Shown here: positions 2,244 through 35,315 of the stretch, piece by piece
Layout: every line of letters starts with the position of its first letter
How positions within the stretch are numbered: the stretch's first letter is position 1
Source of the DNA: a virus
DNA length: 35,997 bases
Reading direction: 5' to 3' (one strand)
IMG/VR virus record: IMGVR_UViG_3300017917_004268
Location: 1 to 35,997 of that record
Translations under genes and position numbers: made by a program
The notes under the pieces: generated by a model
Database searches by the model: none
Told to the model about the DNA's origin: nothing
The model's input: only the letters and a program-made list of their open reading frames with translations

Positions 2244-2348
2244 GTGGAACAACCAAAACTAACAGAATTTGAAGAAGAGTACTATAAATGGGAGAATAAA
2301 TACGAAATAATGGACCCTGAAAAATTTTATGGTGATGAAAATGAATAA
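2244..2348 (+). CDS. Very small acidic protein (34 aa), operon leader gene
   Basis: A 34-codon frame opens with GTG, 6 nt past a promoter -10, and ends in ATGAATAA, overlapping the next gene's ATG at 2341. The peptide begins VEQPKLTEFEEEYYKW and is rich in Glu and Tyr. It resembles no family I know. Its likely role may be partly mechanical: a leaderless first cistron whose termination loads ribosomes onto the following methylase gene, which has no Shine-Dalgarno of its own. Coding status is supported by promoter position and by the overlap but not by homology. Confidence 0.5.
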   Translation: MEQPKLTEFEEEYYKWENKYEIMDPEKFYGDENE

Positions 2349-3261
2349 CTTTTTAAAATATTATAGAGCAATATGGGGATTTCATAACAGTTATTTTATA
2401 GAATATTACGCAAAAAGTTTTTTAAGGCCAGTGGTATCAAATTGTAGAGAACACAGGGTATTTAATTTGCTAAAATACAGAAAGTGTGTTGTATGTGGAC
2501 TTGAAGTTGAATATGAAAATAAAGACGGAAAGTTGGTTTTATTAGGAACTGAAATTGGAAATGCTTTTGATGTAACCCCAAGAGTTTTAGATGCACTCAA
2601 AAATGCTGATTATATTTTATGTGAGCATGAAGATAGTTTTGAAGGTTTTTTGAATACTTTTAAATTTAAGCCAAAAGGAATTATTTTTGGATATTCAGAA
2701 TTTGATAATAATGAAAATGGAAATAAAAAAAGAATATGGTTATATGAAGAAATACTTTCAGGAAAAGATGCTGTCATGATTGCTGATCAAGGCATGCCCT
2801 TTGTAATGGATCCGTGTGATGACATATTTAAAGATGCAATAAATTATGGAGTAAAAACAACTATATTTCCTGGACCAGATGCTCCAGTTACAGCACTTAA
2901 TATATCTGGGCTAAATGCTTGGGATTTTACATTTATTGGATTTTTACCACATCAAACAAAGGACAAAGAAGATTTACTTAGATTAATTAAATATGATGAC
3001 AAAACAAATATATTTTTTGATAAAGATATATATATATTAGAAACTTTAAAACAGTTATCAGAAATTCTTGGAGAAAATAAAAATATAGCATTGTGCTTTA
3101 ACATTACAAGGGAAACAGAAAATATTATTAGAGGAACAGTAAAAGAGGTTATTGACTGGTTACTTAAAAATGGTTATGATCAACCAAGAGAAGACGCTGA
3201 ATGGTTGGTTCAACTCACAGTAGTCGTAGAAGGAAATAATCCAAAAGGTCCTCACATATGA
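2341..3261 (+). CDS. RsmI-like tetrapyrrole-methylase-fold methyltransferase with N-terminal extension
   Basis: This is a class III SAM-dependent methyltransferase resembling RsmI, the 16S rRNA C1402 2'-O-methyltransferase. Family signatures in order: LLGTEIGNAFDVTPRVL (compare P-I-G-N-L-x-D), DYILCEHEDS, MIADQGMPFVMDP (compare D-A-G-T-P-x-I-S-D-P), IFPGPDAPVTAL and FTFIGFLPH. Unlike standard RsmI it has about 60 extra N-terminal residues with a possible zinc site (NCREH and CVVCG). Start at 2341 is preferred because it overlaps the stop of the leader gene; in-frame ATGs at 2329 and 2335 are alternatives. It overlaps the next gene by 4 nt. Two further relatives occur at 8756 and 34635. Substrate unknown: rRNA is a guess from the family. 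Confidence 0.8.
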   Translation: MNNFLKYYRAIWGFHNSYFIEYYAKSFLRPVVSNCREHRVFNLLKYRKCVVCGLEVEYENKDGKLVLLGTEIGNAFDVTPRVLDALKNADYILCEHEDSFEGFLNTFKFKPKGIIFGYSEFDNNENGNKKRIWLYEEILSGKDAVMIADQGMPFVMDPCDDIFKDAINYGVKTTIFPGPDAPVTALNISGLNAWDFTFIGFLPHQTKDKEDLLRLIKYDDKTNIFFDKDIYILETLKQLSEILGENKNIALCFNITRETENIIRGTVKEVIDWLLKNGYDQPREDAEWLVQLTVVVEGNNPKGPHI

Positions 3262-5513: not shown

Positions 5514-6432
5514 TATATTTATTCATGAATCTGCTTTAAAGAGAAAAAAAGATTTTGATTATGAGCAGGTAAATGTAAAAAAAACTCCTCAATGGACATA
5601 TACAGATTCTACAATAAAAGATTTTTCCAAAGTGTTGTTGAGATTAGAATCAACAAACCATTGCAACTTTGAATGTACTTTTTGTCCACATCCAACTATG
5701 GAAAGAGATAAAGGTTTTATGGATGAGGATATGGTTTATAAATTAATACAAGAAGCAGGACAATTAGGATTTAAAATGCTAGATTTAAGAAATTTTGGTG
5801 AACCAATTATAGATAGAAGACTTGCTAAGTTTGCTAAATATGCAAGAGAGGTTGGATTTGAAACCATATATATACATACCAATGGTCATTTAATAAATGC
5901 AAAAATGTTAGATGATTGGGGTAAAAATGGTATCACTGATGTTTTAATTAGTCTTTCTCCTAAAGGTGAATTTTCACAAACCAGACCTGGTATCAATGTT
6001 GATAAATTTTTTAATAACATAGAAAAATTAATTAATGACAAACCAGATTGTCTCAATATATTAAAAGTAGATTATATTAAAACTGGTATGTCTTCTATTG
6101 AAGAAGAAACTGAGTTTTTTGAATGGCTTCATAGACTTGGTATACCTAAAAGAATAGATATTAGCCTACATAACTGGGCTGTAGGGGAAGATAACTCACA
6201 CTATACCTGTCATAGATTATGGTCCTCTATAACTGTTTTATGGGACGGTACCGTCGCACTTTGCTGTCTTGATTATGAAGGAGATTATGTTCTTGGAGAT
6301 ACTAAAACACAATCAATATCAGAGATTATTAATAGTGATTTGTATAGAGAAATAAGATCAAATCACTTAAATGGTAAATTTTTATCAAAATGTGCTTCCT
6401 GTGACATGCCTAAGCAAAAAGATGTATTATAA
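5503..6432 (+). CDS. Radical SAM protein with SPASM-type C-terminus
   Basis: The protein (310 aa from this start) carries the radical SAM cluster motif C54-x3-C58-x2-C61 (CNFECTFCP) followed by LRNFGEP and HTNGHLIN strands typical of the partial TIM barrel. The C-terminal third has CHRLWSSITVLWDGTVALCC and a final CASC, the auxiliary cluster-binding SPASM/twitch pattern. Such enzymes modify peptides, sugars or small molecules through a 5'-deoxyadenosyl radical. ATG 5503 is chosen for its ATGAGCAATAG overlap with the oxygenase stop; in-frame ATGs at 5461, 5467 and 5494 exist. It is co-transcribed with an oxygenase and ends at the promoter of the virion genes. Substrate unknown. Confidence 0.88.
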   Translation: MSNSIFIHESALKRKKDFDYEQVNVKKTPQWTYTDSTIKDFSKVLLRLESTNHCNFECTFCPHPTMERDKGFMDEDMVYKLIQEAGQLGFKMLDLRNFGEPIIDRRLAKFAKYAREVGFETIYIHTNGHLINAKMLDDWGKNGITDVLISLSPKGEFSQTRPGINVDKFFNNIEKLINDKPDCLNILKVDYIKTGMSSIEEETEFFEWLHRLGIPKRIDISLHNWAVGEDNSHYTCHRLWSSITVLWDGTVALCCLDYEGDYVLGDTKTQSISEIINSDLYREIRSNHLNGKFLSKCASCDMPKQKDVL

Positions 6433-6433
6433 T
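6428..6433 (+). promoter_or_regulatory. Leaderless -10 inside a stop codon
   Basis: A perfect TATAAT spans the TAA stop of the radical SAM gene and ends 7 nt before the ATG at 6441. There is no Shine-Dalgarno at 6441. This would separate virion-gene expression from the enzyme operon. Confidence 0.55.
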
Positions 6434-6440
6434 AGATAGT

Positions 6441-6725
6441 ATGATTAATCATGATTTAGTTACTTTAAGTAACACAGCAGCAACCAGACTCACACCAGAA
6501 GGAAATGTTCACTCTGGACTTGATATGACTGTTCAAAATGTTAATGAGAGTGGATATATCTATTTAGGTGGAGAAGGCGTAACTTCTTCAGATTATGGAT
6601 ATAGACTTTCACCAAACAATGCTTTTTCAGTAGAACTAAGTGGATACGATCACTTATATGCAATTGCTGGAACCAATGGACTCTCTTTATCAGTTTTAAC
6701 CAGTAACCTAGAACACGGTTCATAA
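6441..6725 (+). CDS. Virion-associated beta-sandwich protein (94 aa)
   Basis: The protein resembles the small all-beta phage virion proteins with the pattern QNV..s..vYlGG..VT....g..l.P...f..el....LYAi. Here these are TVQNVNESGYIYLGGEGV (residues 30-47), YGYRLSPNNAFSVEL (52-66) and DHLYAIAGTNGLSLSVL. Relatives are typically encoded beside tail-fibre or neck genes and are thought to decorate the particle. It lies 3 nt before the fibre gene, which supports a structural role. No cysteines, no signal peptide. It is expressed from its own leaderless promoter. Confidence 0.65.
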   Translation: MINHDLVTLSNTAATRLTPEGNVHSGLDMTVQNVNESGYIYLGGEGVTSSDYGYRLSPNNAFSVELSGYDHLYAIAGTNGLSLSVLTSNLEHGS

Positions 6726-7982: not shown

Positions 7983-8006
7983 TAAATCTTAAGAGAAAGG
8001 TACTCT

Positions 8007-8300
8007 ATGTCATTTGATCAAGGAGTAGCACATATCAGCGAATGGTATGAAAATAATGATGGACAAACAAGAAGAGATTTTGTAATCAGAGATTTCGGAA
8101 ATTATGTTTGGCATGTAAAACAATCAGCAGATAAAGGTTCAACAATTGTTACTGAAAATGTAGCATATCAAAGTGATCCAAACTCTGGAGAAACCAATAA
8201 AATGGACATCTCCTATTTCTGCAATAGATGTATTAATCCAGAATTATACAAAGAATTACAGTTTACACATGAATGTAAATGCTGTAATTTTAAATGGTAA
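8007..8300 (+). CDS. Zinc-ribbon-containing hypothetical protein (97 aa)
   Basis: An N-terminal part of about 65 residues (SFDQGVAHISEWYENN..., then FGNYVWHVKQSADKG) resembles no family I can name. The C-terminus carries a four-cysteine zinc site, C72-N-R-C75 and C90-K-C-C93, ending CNFKW. The protein is soluble. Shine-Dalgarno GAGAAAGG precedes the ATG by a suitable distance. It sits between the nuclease and the endolysin gene; a regulatory or nucleic-acid-binding role is possible but unproven. Confidence 0.7.
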   Translation: MSFDQGVAHISEWYENNDGQTRRDFVIRDFGNYVWHVKQSADKGSTIVTENVAYQSDPNSGETNKMDISYFCNRCINPELYKELQFTHECKCCNFKW

Positions 8301-8308
8301 AACTACGA

Positions 8309-8344
8309 TATAATCGTATTGGATAGTATGCTATCCAGGAGGAG
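8309..8344 (+). promoter_or_regulatory. Endolysin promoter, 5' hairpin and strong Shine-Dalgarno
   Basis: A TATAAT (8309-8314) is followed by a perfect 6-bp hairpin, GGATAG-TATG-CTATCC (8321-8336). The hairpin would sit at the very 5' end of the transcript and abuts a near-consensus AGGAGGAG (8337-8344) that lies 7 nt before the ATG at 8352. A 5'-terminal stem beside a strong ribosome site is expected to stabilise the message and keep the site open. It could also be a switch point for lysis timing. Confidence 0.65.
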
Positions 8345-8351
8345 ATAAGAA

Positions 8352-8741
8352 ATGGGCTTACCTATTAAAGATGGAAAGATTACTACGCCTTATAAAAAAC
8401 TTGGCAAAATGTGGTCAAAAGGGTATCACACTGGTGTCGACTTCGCAGTCAAAACTGGAACAGAAGTTATTGCAGTTGCAGATGGAAAAATTGAACCAGC
8501 AAACTGGGGAAAATCATATGGAACTCAAGCAGTACAAAAGGTTGACGGAGGATGGGTAATTTATGCACATCTTTCTAAACTAAATGTAAAACCTGGAGAT
8601 AAAGTAACAAAAGGTCAATTAATTGGATTATCAGGAAATACTGGTAATTCAAGTGGTCCTCATTTACATTTTGAAATGAGAGACAACATTCGTTGGTCTG
8701 CTGGTAAAGATTTAGATCCACAAACAATATTAGATAAATAG
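8352..8741 (+). CDS. M23 (LytM-type) peptidase, probable endolysin
   Basis: This is a 129-aa single-domain zinc endopeptidase that would cut peptide crosslinks in peptidoglycan. The zinc ligands are His26 and Asp30 (HTGVD) and His106 in HLH (104-106), with the second catalytic histidine His73 (YAHLS). The motif GNTGNSSGPHLHFE is diagnostic of the family. There is no signal peptide and no separate cell-wall-binding domain, so release would depend on a holin such as the candidates at 16489 or 35308, or it could act as a virion-borne enzyme. It has the strongest ribosome site in the window. Confidence 0.92.
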   Translation: MGLPIKDGKITTPYKKLGKMWSKGYHTGVDFAVKTGTEVIAVADGKIEPANWGKSYGTQAVQKVDGGWVIYAHLSKLNVKPGDKVTKGQLIGLSGNTGNSSGPHLHFEMRDNIRWSAGKDLDPQTILDK

Positions 8742-8755
8742 AAAAGGAATAATAA

Positions 8756-9469
8756 ATGTCTGGCATGTTGATAGTAGGTTCAATGCACATTGGACATCTT
8801 CAAGATATGAGTTTTAGAATGATAGATGCAATTCGTGAAACTAAAGTTATATATACTGATTACATGCCAGATAATTTATATGATGTTATAGAGTTTTATG
8901 GTATGAATAGAAACGAATACGACATAAGAATATTAAAAAGCACGAACACTATGTTTGCAGATGAATACCAATTGAGAGAGTGTGTAGAAGATTTAAAGAT
9001 GGGAAGAAATGTTTTACTTGTTGCTGGAGAAGGACAAGTAGGAATTGCAGATCCTGGAAATCAATTTATTCAAGAATGTATTAAACAAAATATAAAGTAT
9101 ACAGTTTATCCTGGACCAAACTGTCATGTCTCAGCATTTGTTGCAAGTGGATTAACTAATGGAGATTTTGTAATATCATCAAATATGACTTATCCAGAAA
9201 AAACTATAGAATATTTTAAAGATCAAGACACTCCTTTAGTAGTACCAATTTGGCCAAATAGACTTAAAGACATATTAGAATTAATAGATACTAAATTTAA
9301 GTTTAATAATGGTAAAAATAAAAAAGTAACAGTATGTGTTGATATGACTTCTAATGAAGAAATGTATATAACTGATTGGGTAGATAAAATAGCACATAGA
9401 GAAGAATTAAATAATATAAGAGAATACGCAAAAATAGTATTAGTTATAAGCGATTTTCTTAGAGAATAG
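8756..9469 (+). CDS. RsmI-like tetrapyrrole-methylase-fold protein, copy 2
   Basis: This is a 237-aa class III methyltransferase-fold protein. It aligns by eye with RsmI: MLIVGSMHIGHLQDMSFRM (family V.TPIGNL.D.T.R.), AGEGQVGIADPG (family D.G.P.ISDPG) and VYPGPNCHVSAFVASGL (family PGPSA...AL..SGL). It is closer in its N-terminus (V-G-x-x-H-I-G-x-x-x-D-M-S) to the copy at 34635 than to the one at 2341. The catalytic-type acidic pocket residues seem only partly retained, so RNA methylation is not certain. AAGGAA upstream is a plausible ribosome site, and the gene follows the endolysin by 14 nt. Its end overlaps the convergent oxygenase by 11 nt. Confidence 0.75.
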   Translation: MSGMLIVGSMHIGHLQDMSFRMIDAIRETKVIYTDYMPDNLYDVIEFYGMNRNEYDIRILKSTNTMFADEYQLRECVEDLKMGRNVLLVAGEGQVGIADPGNQFIQECIKQNIKYTVYPGPNCHVSAFVASGLTNGDFVISSNMTYPEKTIEYFKDQDTPLVVPIWPNRLKDILELIDTKFKFNNGKNKKVTVCVDMTSNEEMYITDWVDKIAHREELNNIREYAKIVLVISDFLRE

Positions 9470-16783: not shown

Positions 16784-17500
16784 CTATGAATAATTTTTTC
16801 TTGACCAAAAATTTTTTTTGTATCCATTTTCCATTACCTTTTTAATTCCATAAGACATTTTTCTAAATGCTTTATCGTTAAATTCAAGTGCTTGAGAATT
16901 CCAGTCTTCTCTTTTAATAAAAATCATTTGATATATTGGTGTTCCTGCAGGTATCAAACCTTCAAAACCTCGCTTTACCATAAATGGTATTGGGCCATTA
17001 ACTGACCATTTGTCTGTATCTATAATACCACTCATTGTAAAGAATGGCAAGTCTAATCTATTTGCTGGATGATAATACAATGTACTGTATCCTGCTGGAG
17101 TTTGAGGCTCCCATTGTGTTATCCAATGAAACTCAGTAGTATAGTATCCACTAAAATCTGGAAATACTCTTTTTGAATTAGTATCCTGTGCTCTAGTTGA
17201 CATTGGTTTTATTGGTCCTGCCCATTTATAATTAACAATATCTTCTCCAGTATTTGGATTAATTCCAGAATTATATATTTCTACATCACAAATTAGTTCT
17301 TGTGTATATCCAGAAGTTAATGCATCAATAAAAGGTGGGCATTTTTTTGCAGTACCATCTTCACTTCTTCCATTAATTGTTTTTTGTAATGTTGGCATAT
17401 CTTTAAACCATTGTGCTAAATAGTTTCTGGATGGTTTTGGATGTGGAAGCATAGCCTCAGCATCATAACTAGATGGAATAAAGTTTACTTTTTGATTCAA
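16784..17500 (-). CDS. Uncharacterised phage protein, family shared with 30234 and 30998 (member 1)
   Basis: This is a 238-aa protein of a family represented three times in the window. Shared marks: P-x-P near the N-terminus with WFKDMP, KKCPPFIDALTSGYT (about residues 51-65), GYSTLYYHPANRLDLPFF (about 138-155) then GIIDTDKW, and GLIPAGTPIYQMIFIKREDW (about 181-200). The beta-strand-rich pattern resembles a double-stranded beta-helix. It is reminiscent of DUF6065-like proteins, but I am not certain of that link. It starts with TTG inside a TTGA overlap with the preceding 54-aa gene. Function unknown. Confidence 0.65.
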   Translation of the reverse strand: MNQKVNFIPSSYDAEAMLPHPKPSRNYLAQWFKDMPTLQKTINGRSEDGTAKKCPPFIDALTSGYTQELICDVEIYNSGINPNTGEDIVNYKWAGPIKPMSTRAQDTNSKRVFPDFSGYYTTEFHWITQWEPQTPAGYSTLYYHPANRLDLPFFTMSGIIDTDKWSVNGPIPFMVKRGFEGLIPAGTPIYQMIFIKREDWNSQALEFNDKAFRKMSYGIKKVMENGYKKNFWSRKNYS

Positions 17501-22913: not shown

Positions 22914-23874
22914 TTATTATCTCCCTTATTTGATCAAAAAGTTGTGCAAATTTAAGAGATTCAGATAAAGGCATTAACCAAGAATCTTCGCCTCTTATTG
23001 CCTTTGCAAATGAATCTAGCATCAATTGATACGGATTGCATGGTGCAAATTCTTCTATAATAATTTTATCATATTTATTTTTAATAGTCAATGAACTATT
23101 CTTATTGTATGAAAAAAAAGCATCATTGTCATTAGTGTAAATTTCTCCATCTGTACCTTTTATGCTCAGTTTATCTACAAAATCAATATTCATTGAAGTC
23201 AATGTTGTTGCTTTGACATCACCAATTGTGTAGGAAGTTTTTAAAGTTTCATCACATCCACCTGGATGCCAAGTCACTTCAGTTGAAATATCTTTAATAG
23301 GTGCAAAATCGGTAATCCACATTGGAGCAACTGTGGAATAAGGTCCTAAATCGTAAAGACTTCCACCACCTAGTTCTGGACTCGTTCTAATTTTATTTTT
23401 ATCTATTAGTCCAGCATACGTACATCTTGCATCAATTTCGGTTATTTTGCCAATAACTCCAGAATCAACAAGTTGTTTGATTCTTACAGTTCTAGGGTGC
23501 CATCTATTCCAACTTGCTTCCATTAGCAATTTTCCTGTTGATTCAGAAACCTTGATTGCTTCCTTTAGTTCTTGAGCATTCATTGCTATTGGTTTTTCAC
23601 ACAAAACATGTTTACCTGCTTGCATTGCTTTTATTGACCATGGAATATGTAAAGAATTTGGCAATGAAATATAAACTGCTTCTACTTTTGGATTATTTAT
23701 TAAATATTCATAACTATTTGTAGTTTCTTTTGTCGGATGCAAATCTATCGCTCTATCAATATCTCTACTGGCAACAATATACAGATCAGCAATATGTGAG
23801 TTTTTAATTGCTGGTGCTAGTGCAGTTTTAGCAATCAATCCTGCACCTATAAATCCAAATTTAACCTTGTTCAT
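22900..23874 (-). CDS. Gfo/Idh/MocA-family oxidoreductase
   Basis: This is a 324-aa NAD(P)-dependent sugar or inositol dehydrogenase-like protein. The Rossmann motif is KFGFIGAGLIAKTALAPAI (residues 4-22), with HVLCEKPIAMNAQEL (about 90-104) holding the EKP signature and the catalytic Lys. The C-terminal beta-sheet domain follows (GGGSLYDLGPYSTVAP, with D-x-G-x-Y). Length is standard. It is the first enzyme gene after the decoration glycosyltransferases and could oxidise a UDP-sugar or the sugar made by the NTP transferase. It starts directly after the stop of the glycosyltransferase gene (TGATATG). Confidence 0.9.
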   Translation of the reverse strand: MNKVKFGFIGAGLIAKTALAPAIKNSHIADLYIVASRDIDRAIDLHPTKETTNSYEYLINNPKVEAVYISLPNSLHIPWSIKAMQAGKHVLCEKPIAMNAQELKEAIKVSESTGKLLMEASWNRWHPRTVRIKQLVDSGVIGKITEIDARCTYAGLIDKNKIRTSPELGGGSLYDLGPYSTVAPMWITDFAPIKDISTEVTWHPGGCDETLKTSYTIGDVKATTLTSMNIDFVDKLSIKGTDGEIYTNDNDAFFSYNKNSSLTIKNKYDKIIIEEFAPCNPYQLMLDSFAKAIRGEDSWLMPLSESLKFAQLFDQIREIINEKK

Positions 23875-29320: not shown

Positions 29321-30247
29321 TTAGTCGATATATCTTATTTTTGTCATAAACTTTTTTGAATCTACATCTGTGTATACAGATAAGTCAGGATCATATTCAA
29401 CATCATCTAGTAAAAAAGGTAAATAGTTTAACTTTTCAAGATCTATGTTATGTATTCTAAAAAAAGAGGGTATGTCGCCCATTAAAGGTTCGTCAATATT
29501 GTCATATTTATTTTTTTGTTTTTTAAATAAATCTATCATCTGATTGTAATTATGATATTTAGAAAATGTGGTGTATAGGTCTTTTATCGTATCCTCAGAA
29601 TCCTTTACGTAAAAATCATCTGGACACGCATACATTTTTATATTATTAGCAAAATATAATATAGACATGACCTCTTCTTCTCCATAGTATTTCATATACC
29701 ATGGATAACCAACCTTTTTCAAAGTTTCTGTATATCCAAATATTAAATCTCTACTAACAAAATATGTTGGCTCTATTTTATCAATAATTTCTTCTTCTTT
29801 TTTTAAATAAAACAGTCCCTCATTACTTAAAGTAATTTTATTTTTTCCAGTAATAACATTATGCTTTCCTTTTAAATTTTTTAATAAAAATTCATCCCAG
29901 TCTTGACTTAAATATATATTGTCTGACATAAACATAGTATATGAATAGTTTGAACTTTTTAATACTTCGTTTTTATAATAACAGGGACTCTTTATTTTAT
30001 CCCAAAAAATATGAGTATAGTTAACATTTTTAAAATTATCGTAATATTCCCATTTATCCTCTAGTTGTTCGTTATAAAAACCAAATTGATTCCATTTAGT
30101 TAAAGGACTTTGATCAAAAACTTTTACAAATATATTATTTTTTTTAGAAGACATATCCAATAAATTAGAAACAACTTTTTTCAAATCTTTATTTTTATAA
30201 GAATATATTGTTACTAAAATTGGATTTGGTAAATCAGTATTCGTCAT
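29321..30247 (-). CDS. Glycosyltransferase, probable GlcNAc-transferase type
   Basis: This 308-aa protein begins PNPILVTIYSYKNKDLKKVV, resembling the (I/V)-x-(S/Y)-x-R-D start of GlcNAc-transferase (PF11397) proteins. SYTMFMSDNIYLSQDWDEFL is the acidic metal-binding region. YYGEEEVMSILYFANNIKMY fits the second acidic site (Y-G-E-E) of the family. It belongs to the same broad type as the gene at 23876. Its start lies 14 nt inside the previous gene. Very AT-rich, with long Lys/Asn runs. Confidence 0.68.
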   Translation of the reverse strand: MTNTDLPNPILVTIYSYKNKDLKKVVSNLLDMSSKKNNIFVKVFDQSPLTKWNQFGFYNEQLEDKWEYYDNFKNVNYTHIFWDKIKSPCYYKNEVLKSSNYSYTMFMSDNIYLSQDWDEFLLKNLKGKHNVITGKNKITLSNEGLFYLKKEEEIIDKIEPTYFVSRDLIFGYTETLKKVGYPWYMKYYGEEEVMSILYFANNIKMYACPDDFYVKDSEDTIKDLYTTFSKYHNYNQMIDLFKKQKNKYDNIDEPLMGDIPSFFRIHNIDLEKLNYLPFLLDDVEYDPDLSVYTDVDSKKFMTKIRYID

Positions 30248-30998
30248 AATCCTCTTTTAAACCTTTGGTTCCAAATATTTTTTTTCTCCAAGCAGTTTTT
30301 TTATAATATCCATAAAGCAAAGATCTTCTGTTCTCTGCTTTAAATTCATGATCATCAGATTTTTCTTGACTAGTATCTATCTCCATTTCCCAATTATCCC
30401 TTTTAAAAGGTATCATTTGAAAAACTGGAGTTCCTTTTTTAATTATTCCTTGAAAACCTCTTTTTAAAAAAAATGCAGTAAACACTGGTAATCCCCAAAT
30501 ATCTGATTCAACAATACCAGACATAGTTATAAACGGTAGATCATGTCTATTCATCGGATGTGTAATCAATACAGAATATCCTGGAGGCGTTTCGTAATAC
30601 CAATTCATTCTCCAACCATAATGTATTGGATGACAATTGTCTGGTACTGGTAAGTCTATTGTTGGTCTTTTATCCATAATCATTATATCTTTATCCCAAG
30701 ATAATCTTGGTTTTCCATTTTTATCTAACTCTACCAACAAATCATCTTCCAATAAATAATAATATCCAGCAGTCAAAGAATCAAAAAATGGCATGCACAT
30801 TTTAGTAGCAACTCTTGCACCATCCCCACCAATATTATTTACTGGACTTAAATATTTTTCATCATTCCATATCTCATGCTTTGCTAAACTTTTATACCAT
30901 TCTGGAACATGTTTTACTGCAGGTTCTGGTGCAATAAATGACTTGCTATGATTTGGTGCACCGCCAGGAGTAAAAGATATTTTTAATGAATCGCTCAT
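30234..30998 (-). CDS. Uncharacterised phage protein, family member 2
   Basis: This 254-aa relative of the genes at 16784 and 30998 has PAVKHVPEWYKSLAKHEIWN, MCMPFFDSLTAGYYYLLEDD, then PPGYSVLITHPMNRHDLPFI, GIVESDIW and GTPVFQMIPFKRDNW. The start shares TGATG with the preceding stop (ATG 30998); a GTG at 31001 is an alternative. Position between other decoration genes suggests a related function, perhaps a metal-dependent enzyme of double-stranded beta-helix type. Unknown function. Confidence 0.65.
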   Translation of the reverse strand: MSDSLKISFTPGGAPNHSKSFIAPEPAVKHVPEWYKSLAKHEIWNDEKYLSPVNNIGGDGARVATKMCMPFFDSLTAGYYYLLEDDLLVELDKNGKPRLSWDKDIMIMDKRPTIDLPVPDNCHPIHYGWRMNWYYETPPGYSVLITHPMNRHDLPFITMSGIVESDIWGLPVFTAFFLKRGFQGIIKKGTPVFQMIPFKRDNWEMEIDTSQEKSDDHEFKAENRRSLLYGYYKKTAWRKKIFGTKGLKEDYDEY

Positions 30999-31726
30999 CA
31001 CTTATATTCTTTTTTTTGTCTAAACTTTTCTTTATATGAATTTCTAAAACCACTTCTTACCAAAAGTCTTTGTCTTTCGATTTCACCTTTTGCTTCTATG
31101 TGAGGTATAAAATCTGATTCCCACATCTCTCTTTTAAATGGAATTGCTTGAACTAACGGAGTTCCTTGTTTAATTATTCCTTCAAAGTTTTTCTTAATGT
31201 ACATCGATAAATGCCCATCTGATGCAAAATAGTCTGTATCTATAATTGCTTCAAAAGCCTTAAAAGGAACCTGATCTCTATGATATGGGTGTGTAAAAAG
31301 AGTACTATATCCTTTAGGTGTCATCATTGCCCAAAATGGCAAAATTCTAAAAACTTGTTTGTGATAAATATCAAGATCTACTGGATATTCAGAAACCTGT
31401 TCATGAGTATGTGTTGCTATCATATCATTACCCAAAAATTTTAATTCGTTAGGAACGCTCCATGTTATTTTTTCTGGATTTGTTGTATTAACATATATGT
31501 CCATTGGAACTTTAAATATATATCCAGCAGTCATTAAATCAAAAATAGGCATGCATCTTTTTATGGTGCTGCTCATACTTCCTTTTGAAATATATTCTTT
31601 AAACTCATCTCCAATAAATCCTGGTTGTTTTTTGTACCATTCTGGCACGCATTTTATTGCTGGCTCTGGCTTTGGTACAAATGATTCTGTTTTGTCTGAA
31701 AACGGATAAAAACTAACCTTGTTCAT
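30998..31726 (-). CDS. Uncharacterised phage protein, family member 3
   Basis: This 242-aa relative of the genes at 16784 and 30234 carries KPEPAIKCVPEWYKKQPGF, then IKRCMPIFDLMTAGYIFKVP, PKGYSTLFTHPYHRDQVPFK, IIDTDYF and GTPLVQAIPFKREMW. Ribosome site TAGGAG precedes the ATG. It overlaps the upstream gene by 14 nt. Being directly beside member 2, it is probably the product of a tandem duplication; the 16784 copy is more divergent. Confidence 0.65.
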   Translation of the reverse strand: MNKVSFYPFSDKTESFVPKPEPAIKCVPEWYKKQPGFIGDEFKEYISKGSMSSTIKRCMPIFDLMTAGYIFKVPMDIYVNTTNPEKITWSVPNELKFLGNDMIATHTHEQVSEYPVDLDIYHKQVFRILPFWAMMTPKGYSTLFTHPYHRDQVPFKAFEAIIDTDYFASDGHLSMYIKKNFEGIIKQGTPLVQAIPFKREMWESDFIPHIEAKGEIERQRLLVRSGFRNSYKEKFRQKKEYK

Positions 31727-33065: not shown

Positions 33066-33842
33066 TTATTCTGTAACTTGTACTAATTTATCAGTAACAG
33101 TTAATCCCTTTTGCCATTGTGTTGCTACTGCAATAGTTGCAGATGACGTTGTTTGAGGAATTAGGCCAAAAGATACTGATTGATAGTTAAATTTGCCAGT
33201 AGGTAAAACCCCAAAATAATCAGTATTTGCATCATGATTTCCTACAGGAAATGTTGAAACAGAAACTGTGTCTGTAATACATGCTGGATAGTTTACTGGT
33301 TTTTTGTTTGAATCGTTTCCAGTAGAAACGAAAACTGGAATGCCTTTAGAGTTTAAACTAGCAATCAAACTTCTAATTGCTGGATCAACAATTTTTACAT
33401 TAGTTAAACCAGAAGTTGATAATTTACACTCACCAGGCTTAGTCATATTTCCACTTAGGTTATATGAAAAAGATACTGCAGAGATATTAGAATTATTGGC
33501 ATCTACCCACTGTAATGCTGCTAAAAATGTGTTTCCACTAATTGTTGAAACATTGCCTTTTTTATCTACTGTAGATGATCTTAATAATATCAAAGGAACA
33601 TCGGGATTGTTTCTGCGAGCAACCTCTGCCATTGCAGTACCGTGATTTACTGCATCTGATACTCGATTTGATGGCTTTGCAGTATTAACACAATTATCTG
33701 CAGCAATACAAACCACTGTAGCATTTGGTATACGTGCATCAAAATAACTATCAATAATTACAATTGATCCACCTTGAACTCCATAAGATGGAACTGATAG
33801 CAATGATAGTAGTACGGATATTGCGATTATTATTTTTTTCAT
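33066..33842 (-). CDS. Secreted subtilisin-like (S8) serine protease
   Basis: This 258-aa protease has an N-terminal signal peptide (KKIIIAISVLLSLLSVPSY). The catalytic triad is Asp31 (IVIIDSYFD), His67 (NHGTAMAEV) and Ser234 (TTSSATIAVA), with oxyanion Asn176 (STGNDSNK). The serine motif differs from GTSMA: the glycine and alanine are changed, but Ser is in place. Cysteines 45/51, 139/188 could make two disulfides. There is no pro-domain, so folding may be unusual. A phage-coded secreted subtilase could cleave host surface proteins or act late in infection. The start overlaps the 59-aa gene by 4 nt (ATGA). Confidence 0.85.
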   Translation of the reverse strand: MKKIIIAISVLLSLLSVPSYGVQGGSIVIIDSYFDARIPNATVVCIAADNCVNTAKPSNRVSDAVNHGTAMAEVARRNNPDVPLILLRSSTVDKKGNVSTISGNTFLAALQWVDANNSNISAVSFSYNLSGNMTKPGECKLSTSGLTNVKIVDPAIRSLIASLNSKGIPVFVSTGNDSNKKPVNYPACITDTVSVSTFPVGNHDANTDYFGVLPTGKFNYQSVSFGLIPQTTSSATIAVATQWQKGLTVTDKLVQVTE

Positions 33843-34018
33843 TGTTCTTCTTTCAATCTAACAACAAAGCAGCAGGGATCTCCTCCTGCTTCCCATTCAT
33901 CTATTTCTTCCTGAGACATGTATTCAAAACCACCATCATGAGTATTGCAATATGGTTCAGTAATCCAACCATTCTCTATGCCAGTGATTATCCATTTCTC
34001 ATATTTATTTGTTTTCAT
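33839..34018 (-). CDS. Small actinophage-type protein (59 aa)
   Basis: This protein has WIITGIENGWITEPYCNTHD, MSQEEIDEWEAGGDPCCFVV and a terminal RLKEEQ. The pattern W..EPYC.THDG....-...E..E...GGDPC..VVR occurs in many small actinobacterial and actinophage proteins of unknown function. Cys residues 24, 49 and 50 with His27 could bind zinc. Its ATG follows a TATACT by 6 nt (leaderless), and it overlaps the subtilase gene by 4 nt. Confidence 0.68.
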   Translation of the reverse strand: MKTNKYEKWIITGIENGWITEPYCNTHDGGFEYMSQEEIDEWEAGGDPCCFVVRLKEEQ

Positions 34019-34024
34019 GTATTA

Positions 34025-34030
34025 AGTATA
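34025..34030 (-). promoter_or_regulatory. Leaderless promoter for the 59-aa gene
   Basis: On the minus strand TATACT (34030-34025) is followed by 6 nt and then the ATG at 34018. It starts 4 bp after the stop of the Ntn-hydrolase gene (34034-34036), which lets the subtilase unit be expressed separately. Confidence 0.5.
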
Positions 34031-34033
34031 CTA

Positions 34034-34555
34034 TTAAAGACTGACAGTGTCAACAGGTCCAACACAAGAAATTGAAAAATTTATTGCAGAATTTACTGCC
34101 TGAACCACTCTTGCTCTACCATTTTTTTGTTTTTGACTAGCATATAATGCACCGTAAGCAAATGATGCTCCTGATCCCATTGCTAAATAATCCTGATCGT
34201 ATTCATTTAAAGACATGTCTGCAGAATTATGTTCAAATATTCTACCTCTAACACAAATAATCATGCCAAAATCTGAATCTTTAGAAGTATCTATCCACCA
34301 CTTATCATAAAAATCTTTTAGGTATGTTACAAATTTAGTATACATAAATTTGTCTAAATTTCCTTCTGGCGTTGGTGGTTTAAAATTATGTCTAATTCTT
34401 TCACCATCTGCAGTCCCAGCATAACCAAGTAAGTATTGTCCAGTTTTCCAAACCTTTGGTGCTGATAATGTTAATATACTATCTTCATCTGATGCACCTC
34501 TGTCACCAGCCATAAATATTTTTTTATCTTGTCTAACAACTGCAATACATGTCAA
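34034..34555 (-). CDS. Proteasome beta/HslV-like Ntn hydrolase
   Basis: This 173-aa protein has the proteasome-beta/HslV fold signature. With the TTG start at 34555 the chain reads Met-Thr-Cys-Ile, so methionine removal leaves Thr1 as nucleophile. Counting from it, Asp17 falls in AGDRG and Lys33 in SAPKVW, exactly the catalytic positions of proteasome beta subunits. LLGYAGTADGERI matches HslV's AGFAGGTAD region, and YLAMGSGASFAYGAL matches the G-S-G-x-x-x-A-x-G-A-L strand of proteasome/HslV. No pro-peptide. Frames to 34597 are longer, but the Shine-Dalgarno GGAG is 9 nt from the TTG. Partner ATPase is not in the window; HslU-like regulator or the host's proteasome ATPase is possible. Confidence 0.82.
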   Translation of the reverse strand: MTCIAVVRQDKKIFMAGDRGASDEDSILTLSAPKVWKTGQYLLGYAGTADGERIRHNFKPPTPEGNLDKFMYTKFVTYLKDFYDKWWIDTSKDSDFGMIICVRGRIFEHNSADMSLNEYDQDYLAMGSGASFAYGALYASQKQKNGRARVVQAVNSAINFSISCVGPVDTVSL

Positions 34556-34587
34556 ATGAAACACTCTCCAGATTGGTATTATAGATA

Positions 34588-34627
34588 AGTATACCACTCA
34601 CCATAAATACTTGCAATAGGGTATACT
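34588..34627. promoter_or_regulatory. Divergent promoters of the Ntn hydrolase and RsmI-like genes
   Basis: Minus strand: TTGCAA (34616-34611), 17-bp spacer, TATACT (34593-34588, preceded by TGG), with a second TATAAT (34584-34579) and Shine-Dalgarno GGAG closer to the gene. Plus strand: TATACT (34622-34627) 7 nt before ATG 34635, leaderless. The minus-strand -35/-10 pair is one of the two best in the window. Confidence 0.6.
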
Positions 34628-34634
34628 GTTAAAT

Positions 34635-35315
34635 ATGCCTGGAATTTTAACAGTTGGTGCAGTTCATATTGGTAACCCAATGGACATGTCTCCAAATATC
34701 ATAAATAGTATTATAAATCATGATGTCATTGCAGTAGAAAATATTGATATTTTTAATGAATTATTAGATAATCTTAATATAAAAACAAAAGCACATATTG
34801 AAGAAATAGGAAGTTATCAAGATAAAGAAATAATGCTAAAAATAATAGAAATGCTAAAAAATAATAAAAATGTGCTACTTTTACCAGATAGAGGAACTGC
34901 TAGTTTTCATGATCCAGGAGATATTATTGTTAACTATGCATCACAAATTGGTATAAAGGTAACTTCTATACCTGGTCCAAACTGTCTAATTCCATCAATA
35001 GTTATATCTGGATTGGGCATAGATAAATTTATTTATGGCTCTAGAACTTCAGACAAAGAAGAGAGAGTTAAGTTTTTAACAAAATATAAAGATATGGAAC
35101 TTCCAATAGCATTTTTATCTACACCACGCTATATAGAAGATTTATTATTGGATGCTTTAGATATTTTAGGAGAAAATATTTATTGTGTAATTTGTATTGA
35201 ATTAACAACAAATCGTGAAAAAGTTATTAGATGTAATATAAAAGAAATGATTAAAAAATATTATAATAACGAACTTAATGGGGAGTCCGTTATTATAATG
35301 TGTCAAACTAATTAG
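34635..35315 (+). CDS. RsmI-like tetrapyrrole-methylase-fold protein, copy 3
   Basis: This 226-aa protein shares ILTVGAVHIGNPMDMSPNII at its start with copy 2 (V-G-x-x-H-I-G-x-x-x-D-M-S). It then has LLLPDRGTASFHDPGD (family D-x-G-T-x-x-x-x-D-P-G) and SIPGPNCLIPSIVISGLGID (family P-G-P-x-x...S-G-L). It appears to be an active-fold class III methyltransferase relative, but pocket residues differ from RsmI, and copies 2 and 3 may be a specialised phage branch. Leaderless promoter 7 nt upstream. The 3' end overlaps the convergent membrane gene by 8 nt. Substrate unknown. Confidence 0.74.
   Translation: MPGILTVGAVHIGNPMDMSPNIINSIINHDVIAVENIDIFNELLDNLNIKTKAHIEEIGSYQDKEIMLKIIEMLKNNKNVLLLPDRGTASFHDPGDIIVNYASQIGIKVTSIPGPNCLIPSIVISGLGIDKFIYGSRTSDKEERVKFLTKYKDMELPIAFLSTPRYIEDLLLDALDILGENIYCVICIELTTNREKVIRCNIKEMIKKYYNNELNGESVIIMCQTN

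Follow-up and report, generated by a model that had tools for sequence, protein, structure and literature searches.

A proteasome-like Ntn-hydrolase gene in an uncultured phage and its relation to HslV, BPH and other proteasome homologs

Proteasome homologs encoded by phages are a known kind of gene, described in 2021 and annotated as 'peptidase HslV family'. Fuchs, Alva and Lupas (2021) reported PPH, AAH and CPH as group I homologs that also occur in phages, without giving a function, and saw no AAA+ protein co-occurring with the novel proteasome homologs (PMC8665760). The family further includes connectase, a monomeric specific ligase (PMC8665760), and ring assembly with enclosed active sites is not universal among proteasome-like Ntn hydrolases. 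BPH was solved as a double ring of 14 subunits, has no known partner ATPase and binds epoxomicin, yet it is inert on standard peptides and casein (PMC5777263), so that an intact active site is no guarantee of general proteolysis. Moreover, a Salmonella jumbo phage carries HslV-like genes but no HslU (PMC7823757). For phage relatives of the protein studied here, the literature searched yielded no activity, oligomeric state or substrate. Below, we compare with these systems a gene from an uncultured phage, located in a 35,997-nt stretch of viral DNA (IMG/VR record IMGVR_UViG_3300017917_004268), which is referred to as the window.

Gene, start codon and catalytic residues

The gene and its principal elements are as follows:

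34034..34555, minus strand: proteasome-like Ntn-hydrolase gene, 173 aa from TTG
34555-34553, minus strand: TTG start codon, read directly from the sequence
34550..34552, minus strand: Thr1 codon (nucleophile)
34502..34504, minus strand: Asp17 codon
34454..34456, minus strand: Lys33 codon
34424..34426, minus strand: Gly43 codon, oxyanion-hole glycine position (= proteasome Gly47) by HslV/BPH alignment
34564..34569, minus strand: GGAGAG, Shine-Dalgarno-like, 8 nt before TTG, read directly; relatives have similar sites

The open frame extends from 34597 to 34034 on the minus strand and contains the TTG codon at 34555, followed by a threonine codon. Three relatives that are 77% identical (L002, L004 and L006) have an in-frame stop four to five codons upstream and no start codon in between, which leaves TTG as the sole start ahead of T1. 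The equivalent codon is ATG in most other relatives, many of which carry a Shine-Dalgarno-like sequence ahead of it. The comparison thus supports translation from TTG 34555, which would place Thr directly after the initiator; the E. coli HslV frame likewise opens with Met-Thr. The alternative GTG start at 34597 was rejected because it is not conserved among relatives, and an unprocessed N-terminus at this position, which the earlier note had named as evidence against its reading, is therefore unlikely. That note had proposed the TTG start with T1, D17 and K33, and its coordinates and residues are exact; the G-S-G-x(3)-A-x-G-A-L strand that it described is present in the translation as GSGASFAYGAL, including the G-S-G turn.

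The T1/D17/K33 spacing is by itself weak evidence. Among the 412 start codons in the whole window that lead into 60 or more open codons, two fit [T/S]1-D17-K33, and the second belongs to an unrelated frame at 23202. This chance occurrence led us to reject the spacing as proof of identity, and its significance rests on homology. Across the 76 distinct relatives, which comprise all loci gathered and include E. coli HslV and the plasmid relatives, residue 1 is T in 75 and S in one, residue 17 is D in 75 and E in one, and both K33 and G43 are invariant (76/76 each), in line with the intact proteasome-type catalytic set claimed earlier. Comparison of the window gene with its closer relatives further reveals purifying selection (dN ~0.13-0.22, dS ~0.9-2.2). 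All 16 relative contigs have a single copy of the gene, which suggests a homo-oligomer. A different arrangement is seen in Aeromonas phage 2L372X (L061, 3001-3552 and the next gene), where two adjacent 'peptidase HslV family' genes possibly represent a two-subunit version.

Family relationships and predicted structure

The single strong PHROG match of the window protein is phrog_1040, 'peptidase HslV family' (E 6.6e-22). Its score against the Pfam Proteasome model (19.4 bits) lies just below the cut-off of 22.4, and nine of the 14 aligned members match this model at E <=0.01 (best 5.7e-9). The search against HslV, proteasome beta and BPH suggested in the earlier note also returned matches: a 14-member phage profile hits HslV (1m4y, 1.1e-13), BPH (5ovu, 1.5e-13) and numerous beta subunits of proteasomes. 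The HslV equivalog models, by contrast, score 27-28 bits versus cut-offs of 137-158, with the top model at 28.2 versus 157.75. In the phylogenetic tree, in which BPH and T. maritima HslV are represented only by the stretches aligned by the hmmsearch profile, HslV and BPH are split from all phage and plasmid relatives with a support of 99/97; the BPH branch is long, and grouping of the window protein with BPH was not seen. The window protein falls into a 100/99-supported clade of uncultured phages, separate both from the proteins of T5-like and Vibrio phages and from a rhizobial/Paraburkholderia/Streptomyces group. These sequence comparisons place it in a new clade within the phage and bacterial proteasome homologs of Fuchs et al. 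2021 (PMC8665760).

The protein matches 153 phage records in tblastn searches, and no near DNA match to the window was found among isolated phages; a gp23 search meant to type the phage matched no sequence at all and so carries no weight. The phiTY18 protein used as a query retrieved no further viral contigs. When bacterial genome contigs were searched with the relatives' alignment, no relatives were confirmed, probably because just one short pattern was usable. Large plasmids of rhizobia and Paraburkholderia phymatum (pBPHY02, 6001-6591; L129) do encode relatives, annotated as hypothetical proteins. One of them, on Sinorhizobium americanum plasmid B (8001-8546; L130), has nifQ on one side and, on the other, an iron-sulfur assembly gene and then nifS, and another, in Rhizobium jaguaris (8001-8546; L127), is located ~6 kb from nodD2 and nifH.

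The AlphaFold2 model, obtained with 28 window and viral sequences as input, has a pLDDT of 91.7 and a pTM of 0.89. It comprises an alpha-beta-beta-alpha core with flanking helix pairs, arranged in the order strands, H50-57, H67-85, strands, H130-139, H146-160, strand; this is the order of proteasome subunits, with both helix pairs present. Structure prediction, proposed previously as a check, thus returned the Ntn fold and not another one. The best structural matches in Foldseek are all proteasome family members, and BPH and HslV rank first, tied, in Foldseek and VIA-align, both over the whole chain (VIA-align: BPH 5ovt, Z 19.7, rmsd 2.5, 164 residues aligned, 20% identity; HslV 6kr1, Z 19.4, rmsd 3.0, 163 residues aligned).

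The window protein therefore resembles several known systems in different ways. It shares with AAH, CPH and PPH the proteasome fold, the T1/D17/K33/Gly set, the lack of a propeptide, the occurrence in phages and the fact that no AAA+ partner was found. Membership in PPH was rejected, since PPH has ~140 residues and lacks helix H2, whereas the window protein has 173 residues and H2 (67-85) is present in the model. Membership in AAH, which we know by description only, is plausible from the taxonomy of the plasmid relatives, as relatives of the window protein on rhizobial and Streptomyces plasmids give an AAH-like distribution. BPH offers the closest fold, tied with HslV, together with Thr1 and no known partner ATPase, but belongs to a separate sequence clade; its tetradecamer and acidic cavity are known of BPH itself, whereas the window protein is represented by a single-chain model. 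HslV shares the fold (Z ~19), the Met-Thr N-terminus and the catalytic triad. It differs in that the window protein scores below the equivalog cut-offs, that no hslU gene was found in the relative contigs and isolate genomes searched and that the basic R86/R89/K90 cluster of the pore region is missing. The earlier designation as proteasome/HslV-type can thus be narrowed to a proteasome-like Ntn hydrolase that is not HslV proper, given its 28-bit score, its separate clade, the absence of this cluster and, in the sequences searched, of a detectable HslU.

Upstream element and gene neighbourhood

Three further elements flank the gene:

34588..34596, minus strand: TGGTATACT, extended -10 promoter-like element (TGnTATACT)
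33842..34018, minus strand: 58-aa ORF, directly downstream, of no known family
33066-33842, minus strand: subtilase-like protein with a signal-peptide-like start, phrog_3677 'protease' (1.1e-10)

Of 75 relatives, 42 carry TGNTATACT in the 80 nt upstream of the gene, usually at a distance of 25-32 nt from the start codon; simple shuffling gives a chance occurrence of ~0.2% per sequence. This conserved extended -10-like element suggests that a host polymerase of the sigma-70 type may transcribe the gene ahead of late morphogenesis. A one-mismatch copy, TAGTATACTT, is located at 34024-34033, just ahead of the 58-aa ORF.

The closest relatives partly keep the order amphipathic protein, holin/nuclease-like gene, (methylase), protease gene, 58-aa ORF, subtilase. 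The 58-aa ORF is conserved beside the gene more often than the subtilase; it adjoins the protease gene in many relatives, is found elsewhere in others and has no match in isolated phages. The earlier note had seen two proteases in one block. The subtilase is indeed nearby in the window, but apart from the closest relatives only L079 has it next to the gene, there in divergent orientation. Its place is taken by a carbamoyltransferase in L027, L028, L034, L043, L046 and L048, and by other genes or none in other relatives, so that a conserved two-protease block was rejected. In other phages, several relatives lie near ribonucleotide reductase, thymidylate synthase or PhoH genes, and the neighbours in annotated isolates are mainly nucleotide-metabolism and hypothetical genes. 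Together, the gene order, the -10-like element and these neighbours suggest that the protein may act in the infected cell ahead of late morphogenesis. PADLOC gave no match to a defence system, and a defence-system reading was rejected on this basis.

Elsewhere in the window, the plus-strand ORFs 2329-3261, 8756-9469 and 34635-35315 have similar sequence features; the last matches Pfam TP_methylase (tetrapyrrole methylases, 1.7e-8), and the other two are alike by eye. The minus-strand ORFs 30234-31001 and 30998-31726 are adjacent paralogs of phrog_7084, a PHROG of unassigned function, and 16784-17500 (minus strand) is, by eye, likely a third copy.

Mode of action and alternative explanations

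The gene product is probably a group I proteasome-like N-terminal-threonine hydrolase that self-assembles and acts independently of ATP, with no phage-encoded unfoldase. This reading builds on a strongly supported start site, fold and catalytic set and on purifying selection. Met-Thr termini permit Met removal by methionine aminopeptidase. After translation from TTG 34555, as backed by the comparison of relatives, the host enzyme would strip the initiator Met and expose Thr1, so that no propeptide would be needed. The chain is predicted with high confidence to fold into an alpha-beta-beta-alpha Ntn sandwich, in which, judging from conservation and alignment, Thr1, Asp17, Lys33 and Gly43 would form an active site as in the proteasome. 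By analogy with BPH and HslV, identical subunits may then form a single or double ring that encloses the active sites and could cleave unfolded proteins or a few host or phage proteins. During infection, the protein would likely serve protein turnover or inactivate certain host proteins, and not act in virion maturation.

A search for an HslU-like ATPase, advised previously, was run on the relatives. The HslU and AAA_2 models matched the control genomes but nothing in the 16 relative contigs, which are fragments of 55-111 kb, or in nine isolate phage genomes (107-309 kb), which carry distant relatives; the window's own genome is represented only by a fragment of 36 kb, and a partner could also come from a host HslU. 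AAA-domain matches were seen in L124-L126, above the cut-off only in L124, whose protein could, at a guess, be a clamp-loader-type ATPase. The lack of a phage-encoded partner in these searches could also mean that a phage HslV docks on host HslU and redirects it, to degrade chosen proteins or to poison host HslUV, and HslV is among both the closest folds (Z ~19) and the closest sequences. We nevertheless consider such docking unlikely, since the clade stands apart from HslV and BPH (99/97), the 28-bit score falls far short of the HslV cut-off of 157.75, the R86/R89/K90 cluster is absent from the alignment and no AAA+ protein was seen to co-occur with the novel homologs (PMC8665760).

It also appears quite improbable that the protein is not degradative but serves as a specific Ntn amidase or peptide ligase, with one motif in a single host or phage protein as its target. 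The membership of connectase in the family (PMC8665760) and the lack of general protease activity in BPH (PMC5777263) speak for such an enzyme, whereas the chain is compact and HslV/BPH-like, with both helix pairs in the model and nothing like the connectase insertion between strands 3 and 4. Phages often encode prohead or virion maturation proteases. For the present gene this function is highly improbable, as no capsid genes were recognised beside it in the window, the neighbours in isolates are mainly of the nucleotide-metabolism and hypothetical kind, the promoter-like element is of the sigma-70 type and the top structural matches all belong to the proteasome family. Finally, the chance recurrence of the T1/D17/K33 spacing in the window could hint at a chance frame or a decayed, functionless gene, an explanation rendered negligible by the catalytic set kept in 76 relatives, the purifying selection and the confident predicted fold.

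Proteasome homologs of viruses have been recognised by their sequences, but none has a demonstrated substrate in the literature searched. The proteasome-like hydrolase described here belongs to a clade of small, single-copy and strongly conserved proteins found in many IMG/VR contigs, whose catalytic set is strictly maintained by selection in phages where no HslU-type partner was found. It is tempting, if doubtful, to speculate that phages of many lineages carry an unfoldase-free mini-proteasome, built from one kind of subunit, that removes specific host proteins, such as those involved in defence or stress. Because the clade combines these properties, the question of how proteasome relatives may work without an ATPase becomes directly testable with one small protein.
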